Positions 3,474 through 44,917 of a DNA stretch of 49,736 nucleotides are shown here, piece by piece. A program made the translations under genes and the position numbers. Positions within the stretch are counted from its first letter, which is position 1, and the number at the start of each line of letters is the position of its first letter. The notes under the pieces were generated by a model. It saw only the letters and a program-made list of their open reading frames with translations, had not been told where the DNA came from and searched no databases. This DNA is from a virus: positions 1 to 49,736 of IMG/VR virus record IMGVR_UViG_3300030085_003375; one strand, given 5' to 3'.

Positions 3474-4186
3474 TAAAATGTCCCAAACGGATTAGTTTCA
3501 GTGAAATCTAAGAGATTATCTCCAAGAGTTTCAAACTCATCATTCTCGGTATATTTATCATATGTATCATCATGCGAATAAACCTGAACCATCCAAGATG
3601 CGCCAGACTCTGTACCGACAACCATTTCTCCTGGGAAGAATCCTATCGGTATAGTTGAACCTATTGAAACATGAGATACTTTTAAGAGAGCATTTACGTT
3701 ATCCCACTCTCTTACTCTTGCTTCAGCTCTAGACCTTTCACCTCTAACAATCTCATTAAATCTGAAGTTTCCTGAAGCACCAGAAATAATTGCAGGATCT
3801 GCAATCGTAACAGTTGGTTGAGAACTATATCCAAATCCAGGATCCTCAAGAAGGATAGCACTAACAATATCATTACCAACAGTAAATTCGTTGTTTCCTA
3901 CTCTTGTGATAGATGCAATACCGACTGCCGTTGATGCTACTGATACTAATGGGATATATCCAGAACCAGAAGACAGAATTTTAATTGATGTTATTTCACC
4001 ATTAACTATGATTGGATAAAAAGATCCAGCAGTAGTTGGTACTGTAGTCCCTGTTATTGATATTTGTGGAGGATCTGTTGAAGCGTATCCAGTTCCCCCA
4101 TTTGAGATGGTAAACGATTCAATTCCATATGAGGAATTAAAATTTGCTGATATAACTGCTCCCGATCCAGGTACTGTTCTTGCCAT
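3473..4186 (-). CDS. Virion structural protein with Gly-Tyr beta repeats (237 aa)
   Basis: Not a T4 orthologue that I recognise. The first half carries repeats of the form GGTGYASTDPPQISITG (residues about 31-47), SSGSGYIPLVSVAS and DPGFGYSSQPTVTI. These match the repeats in the gp14, gp8, gp10-position and gp7-position proteins of this window. The second half contains RGERSRAEARVREWD and ends ETNPFGTF. A late-type octamer AATAAATA at 4208-4215 lies 22 bp upstream of the ATG and overlaps the stop of the 783-aa gene. It therefore probably heads the unit 237 aa-15-16-612 aa-17. A neck or tail-completion role is inferred from position only. Confidence 0.75.
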   Translation of the reverse strand: MARTVPGSGAVISANFNSSYGIESFTISNGGTGYASTDPPQISITGTTVPTTAGSFYPIIVNGEITSIKILSSGSGYIPLVSVASTAVGIASITRVGNNEFTVGNDIVSAILLEDPGFGYSSQPTVTIADPAIISGASGNFRFNEIVRGERSRAEARVREWDNVNALLKVSHVSIGSTIPIGFFPGEMVVGTESGASWMVQVYSHDDTYDKYTENDEFETLGDNLLDFTETNPFGTF

Positions 4187-4206
4187 TTTATTGGTTTACC
4201 AACGAA

Positions 4207-6558
4207 CTATTTATTTTTCTTTGTTGCCTTTGCATACCGTGTTCTAGAAGTTCTTACATCATTAATAATTTTTAATGCCTTCTGTCTGGTAGTTTGCTTT
4301 TGAACCTTCATATCAATTTTTGGATCTTGTGTAGGAGCATTCTGCATAGTATCTGCACTATGTCTATCTAATCTATTATAATAATCGTGCCTATCACCAT
4401 AGTCCGGATGCCACCCCTGGTTCATTTGTTTTGGTTTTTCATCTGGATACCCCATGATAGCAGGTTTATCCTCATAATCAATTTGTGTTCTTAATTTATT
4501 TTTAATTCTTCTTACAAGAGGATCATTATATGCATCTAAAGTCTCTTGTTCTTTAATGTTACAGTTTAACTCATGCTCCCTTTGGAGACGCTCATTTAAG
4601 ACTGATTGTGTTAAAGTTTCTAATTTTCCTTCTTCATTATACATTTTAACAATATAGTCGTTTCCAACTTTTTTCTTACTCACTATTTGATTTTTAATAC
4701 CCTGACCAAAGTTCTCATATACTTTTGACTCATTATCAGATGCACTACGATCTGTAATATATTCCCAAGCGTGATCTGAAGTTCCTACTGCATCCAGAAT
4801 CATATTCTTTCTCTCTTGAGAGTATCTCGCATTCCAATGGCGATCTTGCTTCTTCCACATAGTATCCTCAAGTCTCTTGAAGGATGTTGGAACTTCTGCT
4901 TTCTTCATTAGACCATCACCAACAGATCTTGTACCAGTTTTATTAACTTTAGGGCGATACTTTATTTTTTCTTGTTTTATTTCTGGAAGAATGTATGGTT
5001 TTTTCAAATTTTTATACTTATTTTCTTTAATAGTAGGTTTAAATGAATATCTAGATTCTCCCATATTTCCACCCATAGGCAATGTTACTTGATAAAACAT
5101 TCCTGGTGCATTATATACTCCACCATGGTTTTCCGCATTACTTAAACCAACTGAGGCGGCAGCAAATCCTGCATAAGTCATAATTGGATTTCCCGATCCT
5201 GCTGTATCTAAAGGGACACCCATAGATGATAAAACTTTTCCAACTGGATTACTTTCCGCCTGTGCAACACTTCCACCTGGTCTAAAGACGTATTCTTTTG
5301 TTAAAACAATATTACCAGTTGCTATAGTTTGATCAATATCAACCTGTACATTATTGTGTAAACTATTATCTAATCCCGCACTCTTATAAATTTGATCATT
5401 TACTGCCCTCTCAATTGTATTTTTTAATGTGTCTTTTTTTATATCTGCTTCGGTAAATTCACCAAGACCTGGAACAGAAACTACTTCGTCACTAAACTCA
5501 CCATTTTGTAGACCACTAATTAGATTATTAATTTCTGGAGTATTTACAGCATTAGAAAGATTTGTGTAGTCTGTTGGGCTTAATGAACTACTTGCATCAA
5601 GTCTATTATCTGGACTAGAACCAGGTCCATTTGGATTTGCCAAAAATTCATTATAATCATTAAGCATGTTTGTGGCAGACTCTAATCCTGTTATCTTACC
5701 CGCCATATTGATTCCTGCAGCAATTCCTTCTTTATTAATAGAAGTGCTTAAAATATCATTTAGAATATTTGATGGTATTCCAAGAAGAGCTGATCTGGCT
5801 TGACTGTTGCCATACCCAATAAGGTCGATAACATCTTTCAGTGCTTGTGATGGATTAGTAAATGGATTTGCAATACCTGGGGGTATATCTGGATCTGGAC
5901 CAAATTTACCTTTAATTACATTGGATATTTCTGGTACTAAAACACGAGCAGCACTAATAATTTGCCCAATCCATCTATCAAATTCATCTTTATCTACACC
6001 AGCACTGGGATCAGTAACGTCCCTATTTGGATTTTCTGAATTTATTTGTTCAAAAACACCAACATAAAAAACTCTATAGTCTGAGACATCTCCATTAATC
6101 AATTTATCTCTATACCATAGAGCTTGTTCTACTGTAAGTTGACTATAACTCGTAAATCCCTCAACATTACCACCAATACCCCAACCACTTACTGTTCCTG
6201 GTATTCTAGCGAGGTTAATTACTTTTCTTGTATCTTTTTGAATATATCCAATAGCACTATAATCACCATCTGGAAAGTAAACACTAACCATTGGTCCTAG
6301 AATGTAACTAGTATCTCCAGGAGGCATTTCAGTTGATGGGTCTCCATTTTCATCAAAAAGACCTGAGGTGTCTTTTCCCAGAAGTGATGGATCATCAGCA
6401 TTTAAATCAAGTTCAACTCTAACTGCAGGCGTAACAATAACTTCATCTGGTTCAATCGTAAAGTATCCAGAAGTATTATTAGTAGGACCTTCCAACAAAT
6501 GAGTGGATCTCAAATGATGCCTAGCTCTAGCAAATTTATTTTCTCTTCCTGCTGGCAT
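4207..6558 (-). CDS. Virion structural protein, 783 aa, unknown function
   Basis: A large protein in the late block between the S8-protease-like protein and the 237-aa protein. The N-terminus (MPAGRENKFARARHHLRSTH) is basic. Residues about 30-250 look like a globular domain with many Pro/Asp turns. The middle is Asn/Ser-rich, with a Gly/Ala-rich hydrophobic stretch around residue 460 (PIMTYAGFAAASVGLSNAEN). The last 250 residues are highly charged, with many Lys/Arg/Tyr, and end KATKKNK. I do not recognise a catalytic motif. A GATAAATA octamer at 6580-6587 is correctly placed for its own late promoter. Assignment as a virion protein is from context. Confidence 0.75.
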   Translation of the reverse strand: MPAGRENKFARARHHLRSTHLLEGPTNNTSGYFTIEPDEVIVTPAVRVELDLNADDPSLLGKDTSGLFDENGDPSTEMPPGDTSYILGPMVSVYFPDGDYSAIGYIQKDTRKVINLARIPGTVSGWGIGGNVEGFTSYSQLTVEQALWYRDKLINGDVSDYRVFYVGVFEQINSENPNRDVTDPSAGVDKDEFDRWIGQIISAARVLVPEISNVIKGKFGPDPDIPPGIANPFTNPSQALKDVIDLIGYGNSQARSALLGIPSNILNDILSTSINKEGIAAGINMAGKITGLESATNMLNDYNEFLANPNGPGSSPDNRLDASSSLSPTDYTNLSNAVNTPEINNLISGLQNGEFSDEVVSVPGLGEFTEADIKKDTLKNTIERAVNDQIYKSAGLDNSLHNNVQVDIDQTIATGNIVLTKEYVFRPGGSVAQAESNPVGKVLSSMGVPLDTAGSGNPIMTYAGFAAASVGLSNAENHGGVYNAPGMFYQVTLPMGGNMGESRYSFKPTIKENKYKNLKKPYILPEIKQEKIKYRPKVNKTGTRSVGDGLMKKAEVPTSFKRLEDTMWKKQDRHWNARYSQERKNMILDAVGTSDHAWEYITDRSASDNESKVYENFGQGIKNQIVSKKKVGNDYIVKMYNEEGKLETLTQSVLNERLQREHELNCNIKEQETLDAYNDPLVRRIKNKLRTQIDYEDKPAIMGYPDEKPKQMNQGWHPDYGDRHDYYNRLDRHSADTMQNAPTQDPKIDMKVQKQTTRQKALKIINDVRTSRTRYAKATKKNK
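4208..4215 (-). promoter_or_regulatory. Late promoter octamer AATAAATA
   Basis: 22 bp upstream of the 237-aa gene; it overlaps the TAG stop of the 783-aa gene. Confidence 0.5.
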
Positions 6559-6587: not shown

Positions 6588-8318
6588 TTATCTCTCATAT
6601 CTAGTTGGAGGTTTCCTTGGCCAAATATTTCCACTTGATGGTCTAACAAACCACATTTTATGGGTAGGTGTCATTTGACCACTGTATTCTCTTTCTCTTT
6701 GGAATTTCAAATATACATTAGGTCCTCCCTGCAAAGAGTTTTCATCAGTATAACTTCCACCAGTATCAAGTAGTTGATCCTTACTCCAATATTCATTAAC
6801 ATAATCTTGAACATCATTTGATCCTGAAACCTTTGGACCATCATATCCAGATTGTCCAGATGCTTGAGTTATTTCTGGGTATCTTTCTAAGAGGCAAGCA
6901 ACTACTCCAGTAACCTGCGGACAAGACATACTGGTCCCATTGAGTTTTAGTCTATTATAATTTGAATTTCTTGGATCTGCTACACCACTATTCAATCCAG
7001 ATGACTGAATATTTGTTCCTGGTCCATATACACCAACAGCAGGTCCACAATCACTGAATGATCTTTTAGCATCAACAACTGCAGAGTTTGTTGCACCAAC
7101 AATAATTGTAGTTCCACTAGTTGCTACATAATTTCCTCTATGATATGCAACACCATTCCTATAACTATTATTATATGCTGCATGACCACCATAAAAATTA
7201 TTATAGTCTGGATCACCTGACTTGACTATTTTATACCTTGAATTTCCTGCAGAACTGAAAATGAGTATACCTGCATTCAAACAATCTACTATTGCTGCAG
7301 TTCCACTAGAATTAGTGGAATTATAAGAACCAACCTTTACTTCCCCTGCACCAAAGGCTCCTCCAGTTGTTGTAAAATCCATTACACCATATTGTTCCAA
7401 CTGAGCATCTGTCAGTGGTCCTTCAATTCTGGTTCCCTGATGGTCAATATAATCAACTTTATTAGGATCGGTTTCTGATTGCGGTGGTCGTGATCTGCTA
7501 AGTAGAGCTCCCCAACTATTATTGATAATAGTAGGATTCTGTTTACCAGTTTTTGGATTGACTGGTTTATTTAAATGAAACTGTAAAATATATTCAAATG
7601 TATCTGCTCCACTTGGATCTGGATTGTTGTTATTTACACCATCTCCTCCGAATGGATTGAAGTTGTAGATATTAGCATCTCTTGCCCAACCCTGAGTGTT
7701 TCCAGCAACAGTTCCTGCAACATGATTACCATGATTCTCTGTTGGAATTACACCATAGTCGTAAGTACCAACAGCACCACCAGTAACTTGTGGATTATGT
7801 TGAAACCAATTATATTGAATTACCCTAGAACCACCAGTTCCATCAGAATTAACTGCAAACTCTGGATCATTTGCATCTATAATAGTATCTATAATTACAA
7901 CATCAACATTTCTTCCAGTCTGAGTTACAGTTGCAATACCTGATTGTGATGGAATACCATCAGCACCCCAAGCATATCTATTTTGCCCCTCAGTACATCT
8001 CAATAGACCCCAATTTATGTGAGATGAATTGTTTCCTGCTCCTTTATTAAAAAAATCTGATTGTTGCTCATAGAATGAAACTTTTACCTCTTGATCTAAT
8101 TCTCTTTTACAATCAATACCTTCTACCCTATCATCATTTAGAAGTACTTCTACTTCTTCTTGATTGAGCATATAATGCGTACTTCTACTTGCAGGTTTTC
8201 TTCTGCAACATTCTACACATCTTTCTGGAACTGTGGATGTTCCACCAGAAGTTTCTAAATCATCATATAGTGATTGGAGACACTGATGATCTTTAACGAC
8301 TACAATATATTCTTCCAT
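6588..8318 (-). CDS. Subtilisin-like (S8) serine peptidase-domain protein
   Basis: 576 aa with a complete subtilase triad: Asp144 in VVIIDTIIDA, His196 in ENHGNHVAGT and Ser463 in LNGTSMSCPQV. The oxyanion Asn359 lies in FSSAGNS. The domain spans about residues 95-480. The N-terminal 90 residues (EEYIVVVKDHQCLQSLYDDL) resemble an I9-type inhibitor/propeptide fold, which is inference. A Cys-rich patch CVECCRR is at 34-40. No signal peptide is seen, and it sits among virion genes, so it is likely a particle-associated peptidase acting during assembly or on the host surface. It overlaps the upstream 244-aa gene by 1 bp (TGATG). It is not the T4 prohead protease gp21, which is a different family. 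Confidence 0.9.
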   Translation of the reverse strand: MEEYIVVVKDHQCLQSLYDDLETSGGTSTVPERCVECCRRKPASRSTHYMLNQEEVEVLLNDDRVEGIDCKRELDQEVKVSFYEQQSDFFNKGAGNNSSHINWGLLRCTEGQNRYAWGADGIPSQSGIATVTQTGRNVDVVIIDTIIDANDPEFAVNSDGTGGSRVIQYNWFQHNPQVTGGAVGTYDYGVIPTENHGNHVAGTVAGNTQGWARDANIYNFNPFGGDGVNNNNPDPSGADTFEYILQFHLNKPVNPKTGKQNPTIINNSWGALLSRSRPPQSETDPNKVDYIDHQGTRIEGPLTDAQLEQYGVMDFTTTGGAFGAGEVKVGSYNSTNSSGTAAIVDCLNAGILIFSSAGNSRYKIVKSGDPDYNNFYGGHAAYNNSYRNGVAYHRGNYVATSGTTIIVGATNSAVVDAKRSFSDCGPAVGVYGPGTNIQSSGLNSGVADPRNSNYNRLKLNGTSMSCPQVTGVVACLLERYPEITQASGQSGYDGPKVSGSNDVQDYVNEYWSKDQLLDTGGSYTDENSLQGGPNVYLKFQREREYSGQMTPTHKMWFVRPSSGNIWPRKPPTRYER

Positions 8319-39765: not shown

Positions 39766-39936
39766 CTAATCAAGTTCGGTTACTACGATACAACCGTTCT
39801 CTACTTCCATATTAACTTCAGTACCCTCATACCATCCGAATTCACTGATAATCCACTCAGGTACTTTGATAACATATTCCCCTGTTACAGGATCAACCTC
39901 TACAGTCGAAAAATTTTCTCCGGGATTTTTTTGCAT
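39766..39936 (-). CDS. AbrB/SpoVT-like swapped-hairpin protein (56 aa)
   Basis: 56 codons starting MQKNPGENFSTVEVDPVTGE. The core VTGEYVIKVPEWIISEFGWY followed by EGTEVNMEVENGCIVVTE has the AbrB/MazE pattern: a short strand, an I-P-x-hydrophobic turn, an EG-x-x-hydrophobic strand and a final VV strand. AbrB-like proteins bind DNA as dimers, as transcription regulators or antitoxins. No toxin gene is next to it, so a phage regulator is more likely than an antitoxin. The ribosome-binding site is weak (GAAG six bases before the ATG). Confidence 0.7.
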   Translation of the reverse strand: MQKNPGENFSTVEVDPVTGEYVIKVPEWIISEFGWYEGTEVNMEVENGCIVVTELD

Positions 39937-42454: not shown

Positions 42455-42922
42455 TCAGAAGTGACGGGAAAAAATGTAACCGTCCTGCTCATCATAATCG
42501 TAGCAGAGTTGATTCCAGGTTGCTTCCCAATCAACACAAACAAAGGAAGGAATGTCAAGGCAGTAGCAATCAGTGGTCAACTGTTCTGCAAACTCTGCAC
42601 CAGACATTTCGCCTTGGTAAGCATCAGTGAAGGACTCAAGATTCTCCTCTCCGTAGAGTTCAATGAATGCCTTAATTGCGTCGGCATCATAATCTTCAAG
42701 GAGTTCAGTCAGGATCTCATTTTGCTCGGGATATTCACCCAGCATTTCTTCCTTCTCAACTGCAGCGGTAGTTACACCGCGTGCCTCAAGGATTGCCTCA
42801 TAAAATGCAGTGAATGCAGGTTTGCCGTTCTCACGAACATAACCGCATGCCAGGCACTGCTCCGTGCGGGAAGCGGTTTCCATGGTCTTGATAGCGGAGA
42901 GGAGTTCGGTTCCTTTGAGCAT
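42455..42922 (-). CDS. ArdA-like antirestriction-domain protein (155 aa)
   Basis: Start taken at 42922 (MLKGTELLSAIKTMETASRT). A longer frame to 43027 would overlap the neighbouring gene. Residues about 84-155 match the ArdA C-terminal pattern: FIELYGEENLESFTDAYQGE, then SGAEFAEQL (Y-x-G-x-x-S-x-x-E/F-A), CVDWEATWNQLCYDYD and GYIFSRHF, with the many acidic residues expected for a DNA mimic. ArdA proteins inhibit type I restriction enzymes. The first 80 residues (EQCLACGYVRENGKPAFTAF) are not ArdA-like and are also acidic. A TATAAT -10 box is 31 bp upstream (42953-42958) and a terminator follows, so it is a single-gene transcript. Confidence 0.72.
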   Translation of the reverse strand: MLKGTELLSAIKTMETASRTEQCLACGYVRENGKPAFTAFYEAILEARGVTTAAVEKEEMLGEYPEQNEILTELLEDYDADAIKAFIELYGEENLESFTDAYQGEMSGAEFAEQLTTDCYCLDIPSFVCVDWEATWNQLCYDYDEQDGYIFSRHF

Positions 42923-42952
42923 TGTGTGAAGTGGTTTGTTTGGTATGTGAAA

Positions 42953-42958
42953 ATTATA
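42953..42958 (-). promoter_or_regulatory. -10 box TATAAT of the ArdA-like gene
   Basis: Perfect TATAAT on the minus strand, 31 bp upstream of the ATG at 42922. I see no good -35 box 16-18 bp further upstream, so activator dependence or a phage-modified polymerase is possible. Confidence 0.5.
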
Positions 42959-42971
42959 AGGGGTCAGCGCG

Positions 42972-43148
42972 TCAGTCGCGGTCGCTGATGTGCCAGATTC
43001 CCCACTGTCCACCGTTGAGGTCTTCATCGGTCAGGGAGCGGCGCAGTTCACGCTCACGCTTCTCCTGCTCCATCACCTGCAAGGCGATGGCGGAGAGTTT
43101 AGGATTGCTGGCGTAGATGCCGTTGGAATCGAATTGGATTTTGTTCAT
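42972..43148 (-). CDS. Small protein with its own promoter (58 aa)
   Basis: 58 codons starting MNKIQFDSNGIYASNPKLSA, then a charged helix (ALQVMEQEKRERELRRSLTD) and a Trp-containing end (NGGQWGIWHISDRD). Function unknown. A good promoter (TTGACT-17-TATCTT) precedes it. Codons are G/C-ending, unlike the virion genes. Its 3' end encodes the GGTGGACAGT sequence that recurs between genes in this island. Confidence 0.7.
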   Translation of the reverse strand: MNKIQFDSNGIYASNPKLSAIALQVMEQEKRERELRRSLTDEDLNGGQWGIWHISDRD

Positions 43149-44320: not shown

Positions 44321-44473
44321 TCACCATAAGTCAACTTCCTTGGTGGTAACATACACTGACTCATCACCTTCTAGACTTAGAATATCATTCCAATCGAATG
44401 ATTCTAGGTCTAAATCATCATAACACTCAATATCTAATGTAACACGAACCGTGCGCTTTGTATGTGTTAACAT
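44321..44473 (-). CDS. Small acidic protein (50 aa)
   Basis: 50 codons starting MLTHTKRTVRVTLDIECYDD, followed by LDLESFDWNDILSLEGDESV. The pattern of a beta-strand followed by acidic LDLE/LEGDE segments matches a small cyanophage family I recognise but cannot name. It has an extended -10 promoter (TGATATAAT at 44503-44511) 30 bp upstream, no clear Shine-Dalgarno sequence, and a strong terminator behind it, so it is a single-gene transcript. Confidence 0.68.
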   Translation of the reverse strand: MLTHTKRTVRVTLDIECYDDLDLESFDWNDILSLEGDESVYVTTKEVDLW

Positions 44474-44502: not shown

Positions 44503-44511
44503 ATTATATCA
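44503..44511 (-). promoter_or_regulatory. Extended -10 promoter TGATATAAT overlapping a stop codon
   Basis: TGATATAAT on the minus strand, with TG-N before a perfect TATAAT. The TGA is the stop codon of the Asp/Tyr-rich frame. The same arrangement occurs at 47861-47869. Confidence 0.6.
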
Positions 44512-44694
44512 CGCATAATGCTTATACGCAAGCGCATCATAATCTTGCGCATCGCGTGCATATTCCTCGTCGAGATCCTCATCTAGATGTGTAGATGCGT
44601 TCGCGAATGATTGCACCCACATATCATATGTCTCGTCGAGATCATGTGCATAATCATGCGTATATGTATAGTCGAGATCGTAATCGTCGTACAT
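44509..44694 (-). CDS. Asp/Tyr-rich peptide partly encoded by the CTCGTCGAG repeats (61 aa)
   Basis: 61 codons starting MYDDYDLDYTYTHDYAHDLD, then ETYDMWVQSFANASTHLDED and LDEEYARDAQDYDALAYKHY. Asp and Tyr together make up close to half of it. The repeat unit read on the minus strand (ATCTCGACGAG) encodes D-L-D-E. A GAGG ribosome-binding site, itself made of a repeat unit, sits four bases before the ATG. It is strongly acidic, so a DNA-mimic-like role is conceivable but unsupported. It could also be a chance frame through the repeat array. Confidence 0.5.
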   Translation of the reverse strand: MYDDYDLDYTYTHDYAHDLDETYDMWVQSFANASTHLDEDLDEEYARDAQDYDALAYKHYA

Positions 44695-44825
44695 AATCCT
44701 CGTCGAGATTCTTGTGTATTGTAGCAGATATATCGTCGAGATGCAAGTCTAGTCGAGATTGTATTCTCGTCTAGCTATAAGTCTCGTCGAGATTCATAAC
44801 GTTTATTTATAAAACTCGTCGAGAA
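44566..44825. repeat. Array of about ten CTCGTCGAGAT units, spacing near multiples of 16-17 bp
   Basis: Near-palindromic units (CTCG-T-CGAG core, usually followed by AT or ATT) begin at 44566, 44632, 44668 (degenerate), 44683 (degenerate), 44699, 44732, 44749, 44766 (CTCGTCTAG), 44783 and 44815. Distances are 66, 36, 15, 16, 33, 17, 17, 17 and 32 bp, most close to 16-17 bp or a multiple. The array spans the end of the Asp/Tyr-rich frame and the non-coding DNA upstream of it. The shape is that of an iteron or multi-site operator, not of a CRISPR. Confidence 0.75.
44804..44811 (-). promoter_or_regulatory. Late-type octamer TATAAATA inside the repeat array
   Basis: Perfect T4-type late -10 octamer between two repeat units, pointing towards the Asp/Tyr-rich frame, 110 bp upstream of its start. 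The distance is larger than at the other late promoters (18-29 bp), so its use is uncertain. Confidence 0.45.
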
Positions 44826-44863: not shown

Positions 44864-44917
44864 TTGACGAACTGCGCGTCTTATGATACGCTCGCTAAAC
44901 TCACAACACCCAGGAGG
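44864..44917 (+). promoter_or_regulatory. Orphan plus-strand promoter and Shine-Dalgarno sequence
   Basis: TTGACG (44864-44869), 17 bp, TACGCT (44887-44892; TATGAT overlaps at 44882-44887) and AGGAGG (44912-44917), then TTTCTACACATAATAA with no start codon. It is the only promoter-plus-ribosome-site pattern I see on the plus strand and may be the remnant of a lost gene. Confidence 0.35.

Follow-up and report, generated by a model that had tools for sequence, protein, structure and literature searches.

Palindromic operator-like sites clustered at the promoter of a conserved gene in T4-like cyanophages

Why should a T4-like cyanophage carry, at one place in its genome, a row of short palindromes that runs from upstream of a small gene into its coding sequence? 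The question is raised by IMG/VR virus record IMGVR_UViG_3300030085_003375, a 49.7-kb fragment of a T4-like cyanophage that was analyzed over its whole length of 49,736 nucleotides (the window). An earlier note, made from the letters of this stretch alone, described about ten near-palindromic units. They lie at a minus-strand gene here designated P0001, which is followed by a second small gene, P0002. We find the array in many T4-like phages of ocean and lake cyanobacteria, including the Prochlorococcus phage P-SSM2, always on this gene pair. It is probably a multi-operator region at which a dimeric protein, most likely encoded by the phage, represses the early gene P0001 with P0002 behind it.

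The array in the window and in related phages

The near-palindromic array proposed earlier is real. The 9-bp core CTCGWCGAG occurs eight times in 44566-44823, five times exactly (CTCGTCGAG at 44566, 44632, 44699, 44783 and 44815) and three times with one mismatch (44732, 44749 and 44766). Two further units in the original count of about ten, at 44668 and 44683, carry at least two mismatches and are too weak to stand. All five exact copies of the core in the window lie inside the array, and neither TCGTCGAG nor CTCGACGA occurs elsewhere in the window, in agreement with the note. With up to one mismatch allowed, the window contains 11 matches compared with 2.37 ± 1.61 in shuffled sequences (largest 7). 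The genes at the array are read from the minus strand. The P0001 open reading frame (ORF) contains two of the sites, and the other six are between its start codon and 44823. Scans of the array region with Rfam models and for tRNAs returned nothing convincing.

How far does the array extend beyond this fragment? The earliest related records identified were S-SRM01, AG-345-L05, S-SKS1 and S-T4. IMG/VR scans with protein alignments located P0002 at 481 places and P0001 at 409, of which the best 80 of each were retained, and removal of loci more than 90% alike left the 96 non-redundant loci on which the counts below are based. Loci were chosen partly by the motif or by motif-encoded peptides; the subset fetched with P0002 only is free of such bias. 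Scanning IMG/VR for a two-site DNA pattern yielded many chance matches of high guanine-plus-cytosine (GC) content; only GC-filtered matches from it were used.

The 22,080 bp upstream of P0001 in these loci contain 264 exact sites against a dinucleotide-shuffle mean of 0.5 and maximum of 3, and the P0001 ORFs contain 128 (shuffle mean 0.35), while the remaining 551 kb of the set holds 43. At least two upstream sites are present in 30 of the 33 non-redundant loci of the P0002-only fetch, for which no motif was used. Clustering at 70% identity reduces the set to 21 clusters, and 16 of these have two or more upstream sites; the counts thus come from related loci and do not represent independent events. 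The motif scan that the note had set as a check finds the core enriched over shuffles both in the window and in the related loci.

In most near-complete genomes virtually all sites are confined to the single P0001 locus. Four IMG/VR genomes of 231, 234, 205 and 146 kb have 5/5, 6/6, 10/11 and 6/6 sites, respectively, at this locus or at most 2 kb from it. S-SRM01 has 13 of its 15 CTMGWCKAG matches within 5.5 kb of 240.8 kb, arranged as three clusters, and P-SSM2 has four of six at the locus, where the layout is kept with diverged sites (TTGACA-ATCTCGACTAGATCTGG-TATAAT). The array-less phages Sf-CH5, SynMITS9220M01, DSL-LC03, S-CAM7 and ACG-2014f show scattered matches and no cluster. A three-site scan of bacterial and archaeal genomes gave, among the matches listed, low-GC examples that mostly resemble coding repeats as well as one chance tandem repeat. 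A contig filed under a Rhodobacteraceae metagenome-assembled genome (RGAJ01000223.1) resembles cyanophage DNA, with the site in a 24-bp tandem array.

Could the sites simply be a byproduct of the protein sequence? P0001 is a gene under purifying selection: its start and end are kept, and the ratio of nonsynonymous to synonymous change (pN/pS) is 0.41, or 0.43 without the motif codons. The note had placed the phase of the units outside the reading frame, which does not hold for the two window sites that lie in frame in P0001. At least two sites in P0001 read Leu-Asp-Glu in frame, as would be expected if repetition of an Asp-Leu-Asp-Glu peptide had spilled upstream. However, the upstream sites, 264 of them exact, refute coding repetition, as the note had argued on other grounds, and we give it a practically negligible probability. 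Within the gene, too, the DNA motif is selected beyond the peptide. The rare codon string CTCGACGAG encodes 125 of the 165 Leu-Asp-Glu occurrences in P0001 compared with 1 of 53 where these phages have Leu-Asp-Glu in longer ORFs, and codon use predicts about 0.5%.

Symmetry, spacing and promoter placement

The oriented logo of the sites gives a symmetric palindrome, AATCTCGWCGAGATT. The tolerated substitutions are C to A at core position 3 and the mirror change of G to T at position 7, and the central base is A or T in 366 of 373 sites. Measured from the ATG, the sites fall into position classes near -150, -118, -86, -53, -12, +48/54 and +87.

The promoter logo of the loci consists of sigma-70-type hexamers before the gene, TTGCAT or TTGACA and TATAAT, separated by 17 bp. 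One site, of the -53 class, follows the -35 immediately in 77 of the 96 loci and begins 16-17 bp ahead of the -10 hexamer, which puts it inside the 17-bp spacer of the sigma-70 promoter. A conserved palindrome overlapping the core promoter, the arrangement looked for in a repressible sigma-70 promoter, is seen directly in these 77 loci and in P-SSM2. The site of the -12 class falls in the leader, past the expected transcript start and ahead of the ATG. In the window the promoter (P1) reads TTGCAT-CTCGACGATATATCTGC-TACAAT, and both the late octamer and the extended -10 that the note had placed near the array are present (minus strand, 44811-44804 and 44726-44718). The features of the array, with distances from the ATG of P0001, are as follows.

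44815..44823, minus strand: operator-like site, exact CTCGACGAG, farthest upstream (-129) and, in minus-strand sense, 5' of the late octamer
44804..44811, minus strand: T4-type late promoter octamer TATAAATA, read in the sequence
44783..44791, minus strand: operator-like site, exact CTCGACGAG (-97)
44766..44774, minus strand: operator-like site CTAGACGAG, allowed variant CTMGWCKAG (-80)
44749..44757, minus strand: operator-like site CTCGACTAG, allowed variant (-63)
44741..44746, minus strand: P1 -35 hexamer TTGCAT
44732..44740, minus strand: spacer operator-like site CTCGACGAT, one mismatch, between the P1 -35 and -10
44718..44726, minus strand: P1 extended -10, TGC-TACAAT (TGCTACAAT)
44699..44707, minus strand: leader site, operator-like, exact CTCGACGAG, downstream of the inferred transcript start and before the ATG (-13)
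44632..44640, minus strand: in-gene operator-like site, exact CTCGACGAG, in frame as Leu-Asp-Glu (+54)
44566..44574, minus strand: in-gene operator-like site, exact CTCGACGAG, in frame as Leu-Asp-Glu (+120)
44509..44694, minus strand: P0001 gene (coding 44512-44694), an acidic Asp/Tyr-rich protein of 61 amino acids, MYDDYDLDYTY...LAYKHYA

The phase of 16-17 bp reported for the window holds between 44732 and 44783 (steps of 17, 17 and 17 bp) and not elsewhere, and the 17-bp step is limited to close relatives of the window. Across the 96 loci neighboring sites are mostly 31-34 or 39-43 bp apart, or about three or four helical turns. Spacer-to-leader distances form two peaks, at 31-35 bp (17 loci) and 38-44 bp (60 loci), which differ by about one helical turn. 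When all spacings were tested for a helical period, 10.5 bp did not stand out, as a single broad peak at 32 bp dominates; it is the two-peak spacer-to-leader distances that lend support to helical phasing.

The note had left the choice between iteron, centromere-like site and operator. The fixed place of one site within the promoter spacer makes an operator the best fit, and nothing pointed to a centromere. The iteron version would make the array an origin akin to T4 oriE, with an initiator on the repeats and a primer provided from the nearby promoter. In the T4 gene order oriE lies upstream of gene 6, and the cyanophage array likewise lies upstream of gene 6. Nearly all sites being at one locus per genome, as in the 231-, 234- and 205-kb genomes above, together with an early-type promoter, is what such an origin would look like; the locus is also 5-10 kb upstream of the baseplate genes gp25-gp6 and is flanked by divergent promoter elements. 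oriE likewise combines a short-repeat array with an early promoter in a T4-like genome; however, its repeats are 12-nt direct repeats of unproven role, whereas the cyanophage sites are palindromes with one fixed in the promoter spacer (PMC3016281). Transcription control explains this tight placement and replication does not. Furthermore, the sites form two or three clusters in S-SRM01 and in some IMG/VR genomes, the gene pair includes no replication gene, and the GC skew of S-SRM01 does not change sign at the array, though T4-like phages replicate mainly by recombination. We consider an origin unlikely.

The promoter could also be turned on, rather than off, by an activator or by a bending or architectural protein. 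The upstream sites near -86, -118 and -150, with their spacing of about 32 bp, resemble activator arrays, and the -35 is often TTGCAT, which is weaker than the consensus. However, sites between the -35 and -10 and downstream of the transcript start are in repressor positions, and many loci have a full-consensus TTGACA-17-TATAAT promoter that should need no activator. Activation is an improbable function of the array.

Repression by a dimeric protein and the search for it

The conservation and palindromic symmetry of the sites, their clustering at a single locus and the selection on silent sites, all of which are directly observed, strongly support the general idea of a multi-site protein-binding array. 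An A/T-centered palindrome in the spacer, with repeats about three and four helical turns away, would be the hallmark of a dimeric protein acting as a block to RNA polymerase. From the sequences we infer that the sites are bound by a protein, that binding represses the promoter, and that the promoter is early. A dimeric DNA-binding protein would occupy the palindrome AATCTCGWCGAGATT at five to eight places between about -150 and +90 of the start codon, and its occupancy of the 17-bp spacer would block the host RNA polymerase. The leader and in-gene sites could add a roadblock, and those upstream could raise occupancy through contacts on the same face of the helix. Such an arrangement would likely repress a strong early promoter, or shut it off by autoregulation, shortly after infection.

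The known system closest to it in its proposed working is the Aca-repressed anti-CRISPR (acr-aca) promoter, in which an inverted repeat is always found in the core promoter and sometimes a second one outside it (PMC9410906). Both systems have a strong sigma-70 phage promoter before small early genes, a conserved inverted repeat within the core promoter and additional copies before or after it, and the cyanophage locus has an ArdA-like anti-restriction gene about 1.5 kb downstream. However, the cyanophage array has five to eight sites, several of them in the gene, rather than one or two. Neither an aca gene nor another helix-turn-helix gene was found in the cyanophage operon, and an anti-defense role of P0001 is putative at most. 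We do not file the array as a member of this class because of its greater number of sites and the lack of an aca gene.

The stoperators of cluster A mycobacteriophages such as L5 and TipsytheTRex (PMC9283540) are similar in that many copies of a short site occur at a promoter and also between genes that lack one. They are, however, 13-bp asymmetric sites, strictly oriented and spread genome-wide in temperate phages, whereas the cyanophage sites are palindromic and occur at one locus or in a few close clusters in lytic T4-like phages. The cyanophage logo is symmetric and both senses of the central base occur, which does not fit an asymmetric site of one orientation.

Several observations weigh against repression by a dimer. 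S-SKS1 retains both genes with just two sites, Sf-CH5 retains a P0001-like gene with none, and S-SRM01 and other loci have extra clusters between genes where no promoter is visible. The phyletic profiling described below brought out no binding protein. In addition, the central base has a strand sense that is set by the position of the site: 79 of 80 leader sites point one way and the spacer site mostly the opposite, a bias that a symmetric dimer need not produce.

The fixed sense of the leader site, which lies in the 5' untranslated region, is what might be expected if the sites acted in the transcript as hairpins or protein-binding sites, and CUC and GAG could pair as a small stem. However, most sites are upstream of the P1 transcript start, the spacer site is mostly of opposite sense, and stem-breaking one-sided changes number 93 compared with 12 two-sided changes (about 9 expected if independent). 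The excess of one-sided changes rejects an RNA hairpin, and a role in RNA of any kind is very unlikely.

Which protein might bind the operator-like sites? The host is an unlikely source because the 13-bp palindrome shows no enrichment in 116 cyanobacterial genomes; a host regulon motif was rejected on the same result. It also speaks against a decoy array that titrates a host regulator. The many sites in one place and the very acidic P0001, which is like some host-takeover proteins, would suit a decoy; its failure to explain the placement in the promoter spacer makes this highly improbable.

Among phage proteins, phyletic profiling of seven array-bearing and five array-less genomes identified no array-specific protein with a recognizable DNA-binding domain, although a novel or divergent fold would escape such a comparison. 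A DUF7294 protein without known function occurs in all seven array-bearing genomes and in one of the five array-less ones. Pfam and PHROG scans of the gene pair and its conserved neighbors found no helix-turn-helix and no aca gene. P0002 was rejected as an autoregulator, as it gave no confident fold (predicted local distance difference test, pLDDT, 75; predicted template-modeling score, pTM, 0.41; no PDB match) and its family also occurs in array-less phages.

The note had suggested the AbrB-like protein encoded at 39766-39936 (minus strand) as a partner. This protein of 56 amino acids belongs to phrog_661, which is conserved in many cyanophages, and like the swapped-hairpin AbrB/MazE proteins it has a predicted MazE/AbrB fold (MazE 1mvf_D; probability 0.98, template-modeling score 0.87 by target). 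It is present in every array-bearing record that is long enough (the window, G001-G006, G008, S-SRM01, S-T4, S-SKS1, AG-345-F15 and P-SSM2). However, the Foldseek E-values are weak (0.2-0.6), the protein is acidic and lacks the usual arginines for DNA contact, and it also occurs in the array-less S-CAM7, ACG-2014f and Sf-CH5, so it is not restricted to array-bearing phages. It is thus a weak candidate for the array binder.

T4-like cyanophages are among the most abundant viruses in the ocean and are treated as lytic, with early genes that are simply on. That the model phage P-SSM2 and hundreds of environmental genomes share a conserved operator array at a single unstudied gene points to an overlooked regulator. 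The arrangement resembles an on/off switch, not described before, in viruses believed to have none. In a more far-reaching version, obligately lytic T4-like cyanophages would carry a dedicated switch in which a phage repressor, acting through cooperative operators at one locus, sets the level of a DNA-mimic-like early protein, perhaps for superinfection immunity or paused infection; in a variant the same array doubles as an early origin. We regard this version as doubtful, if conceivable. Our search of the literature found no paper that combines CTCGACGAG with cyanophages, names the P-SSM2 gene PSSM2_098 or describes the array. The array itself could serve as bait for a protein that binds it, and P-SSM2 and its Prochlorococcus host make such a test practical.

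Neighboring genes and additional clusters

What does the array stand in front of? The P0001 family has a mean length of 54 amino acids and a mean net charge of -14, and no family match was found for P0001. The S-T4 and S-SRM01 annotations lack the gene; PSSM2_098 occupies its place in P-SSM2, behind the same promoter. Three further features of the window belong to this neighborhood.

44503..44531, minus strand: promoter P2 (TTGCGT-17-TATAAT) of the gene that follows; it overlaps the 3'-terminal part of P0001, and its spacer is free of operators
44321..44473, minus strand: P0002 gene, 50 amino acids, conserved cyanophage protein (phrog_12516)
44864..44892, plus strand: divergent conserved sigma-70-like element TTGACG-17-TACGCT, directed away from P0001

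The layout of P2 over the 3' end of P0001 recurs in most loci and, given this overlap, the conserved P0001 ending LAYRHYA is under coding and promoter constraint together. The divergent element is single-copy and highly conserved, reading TTGACA-AACTGCGCGTCTTATGN-TACGCT and facing away from P0001 in 81 of the 96 loci; parts of it also occur in the array-less Sf-CH5 and SynMITS9220M01 and in P-SSM2. Downstream of the gene pair, a protein of 190 amino acids (42455-43027, minus strand) matches the anti-restriction PHROG phrog_36653 (E=4e-16).

The extra palindrome clusters without a visible promoter lie between small early genes, at 4143-4252 and 6909-7005 of locus L137 (S-SRM01) and in loci L109, L117 and L093. 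Stoperator-like roadblocks are one possibility for these. In AG-345-F15 (L140, 2260-2410) several direct repeats of TTCGTGTT are found amid palindromic sites upstream of the P0001 homologue. Finally, S-T4 (MH412654.1) carries the array twice, at 2748-2933 and 174317-174502, with identical spacing and about 171.6 kb apart, which suggests repeated ends in this 181-kb record.
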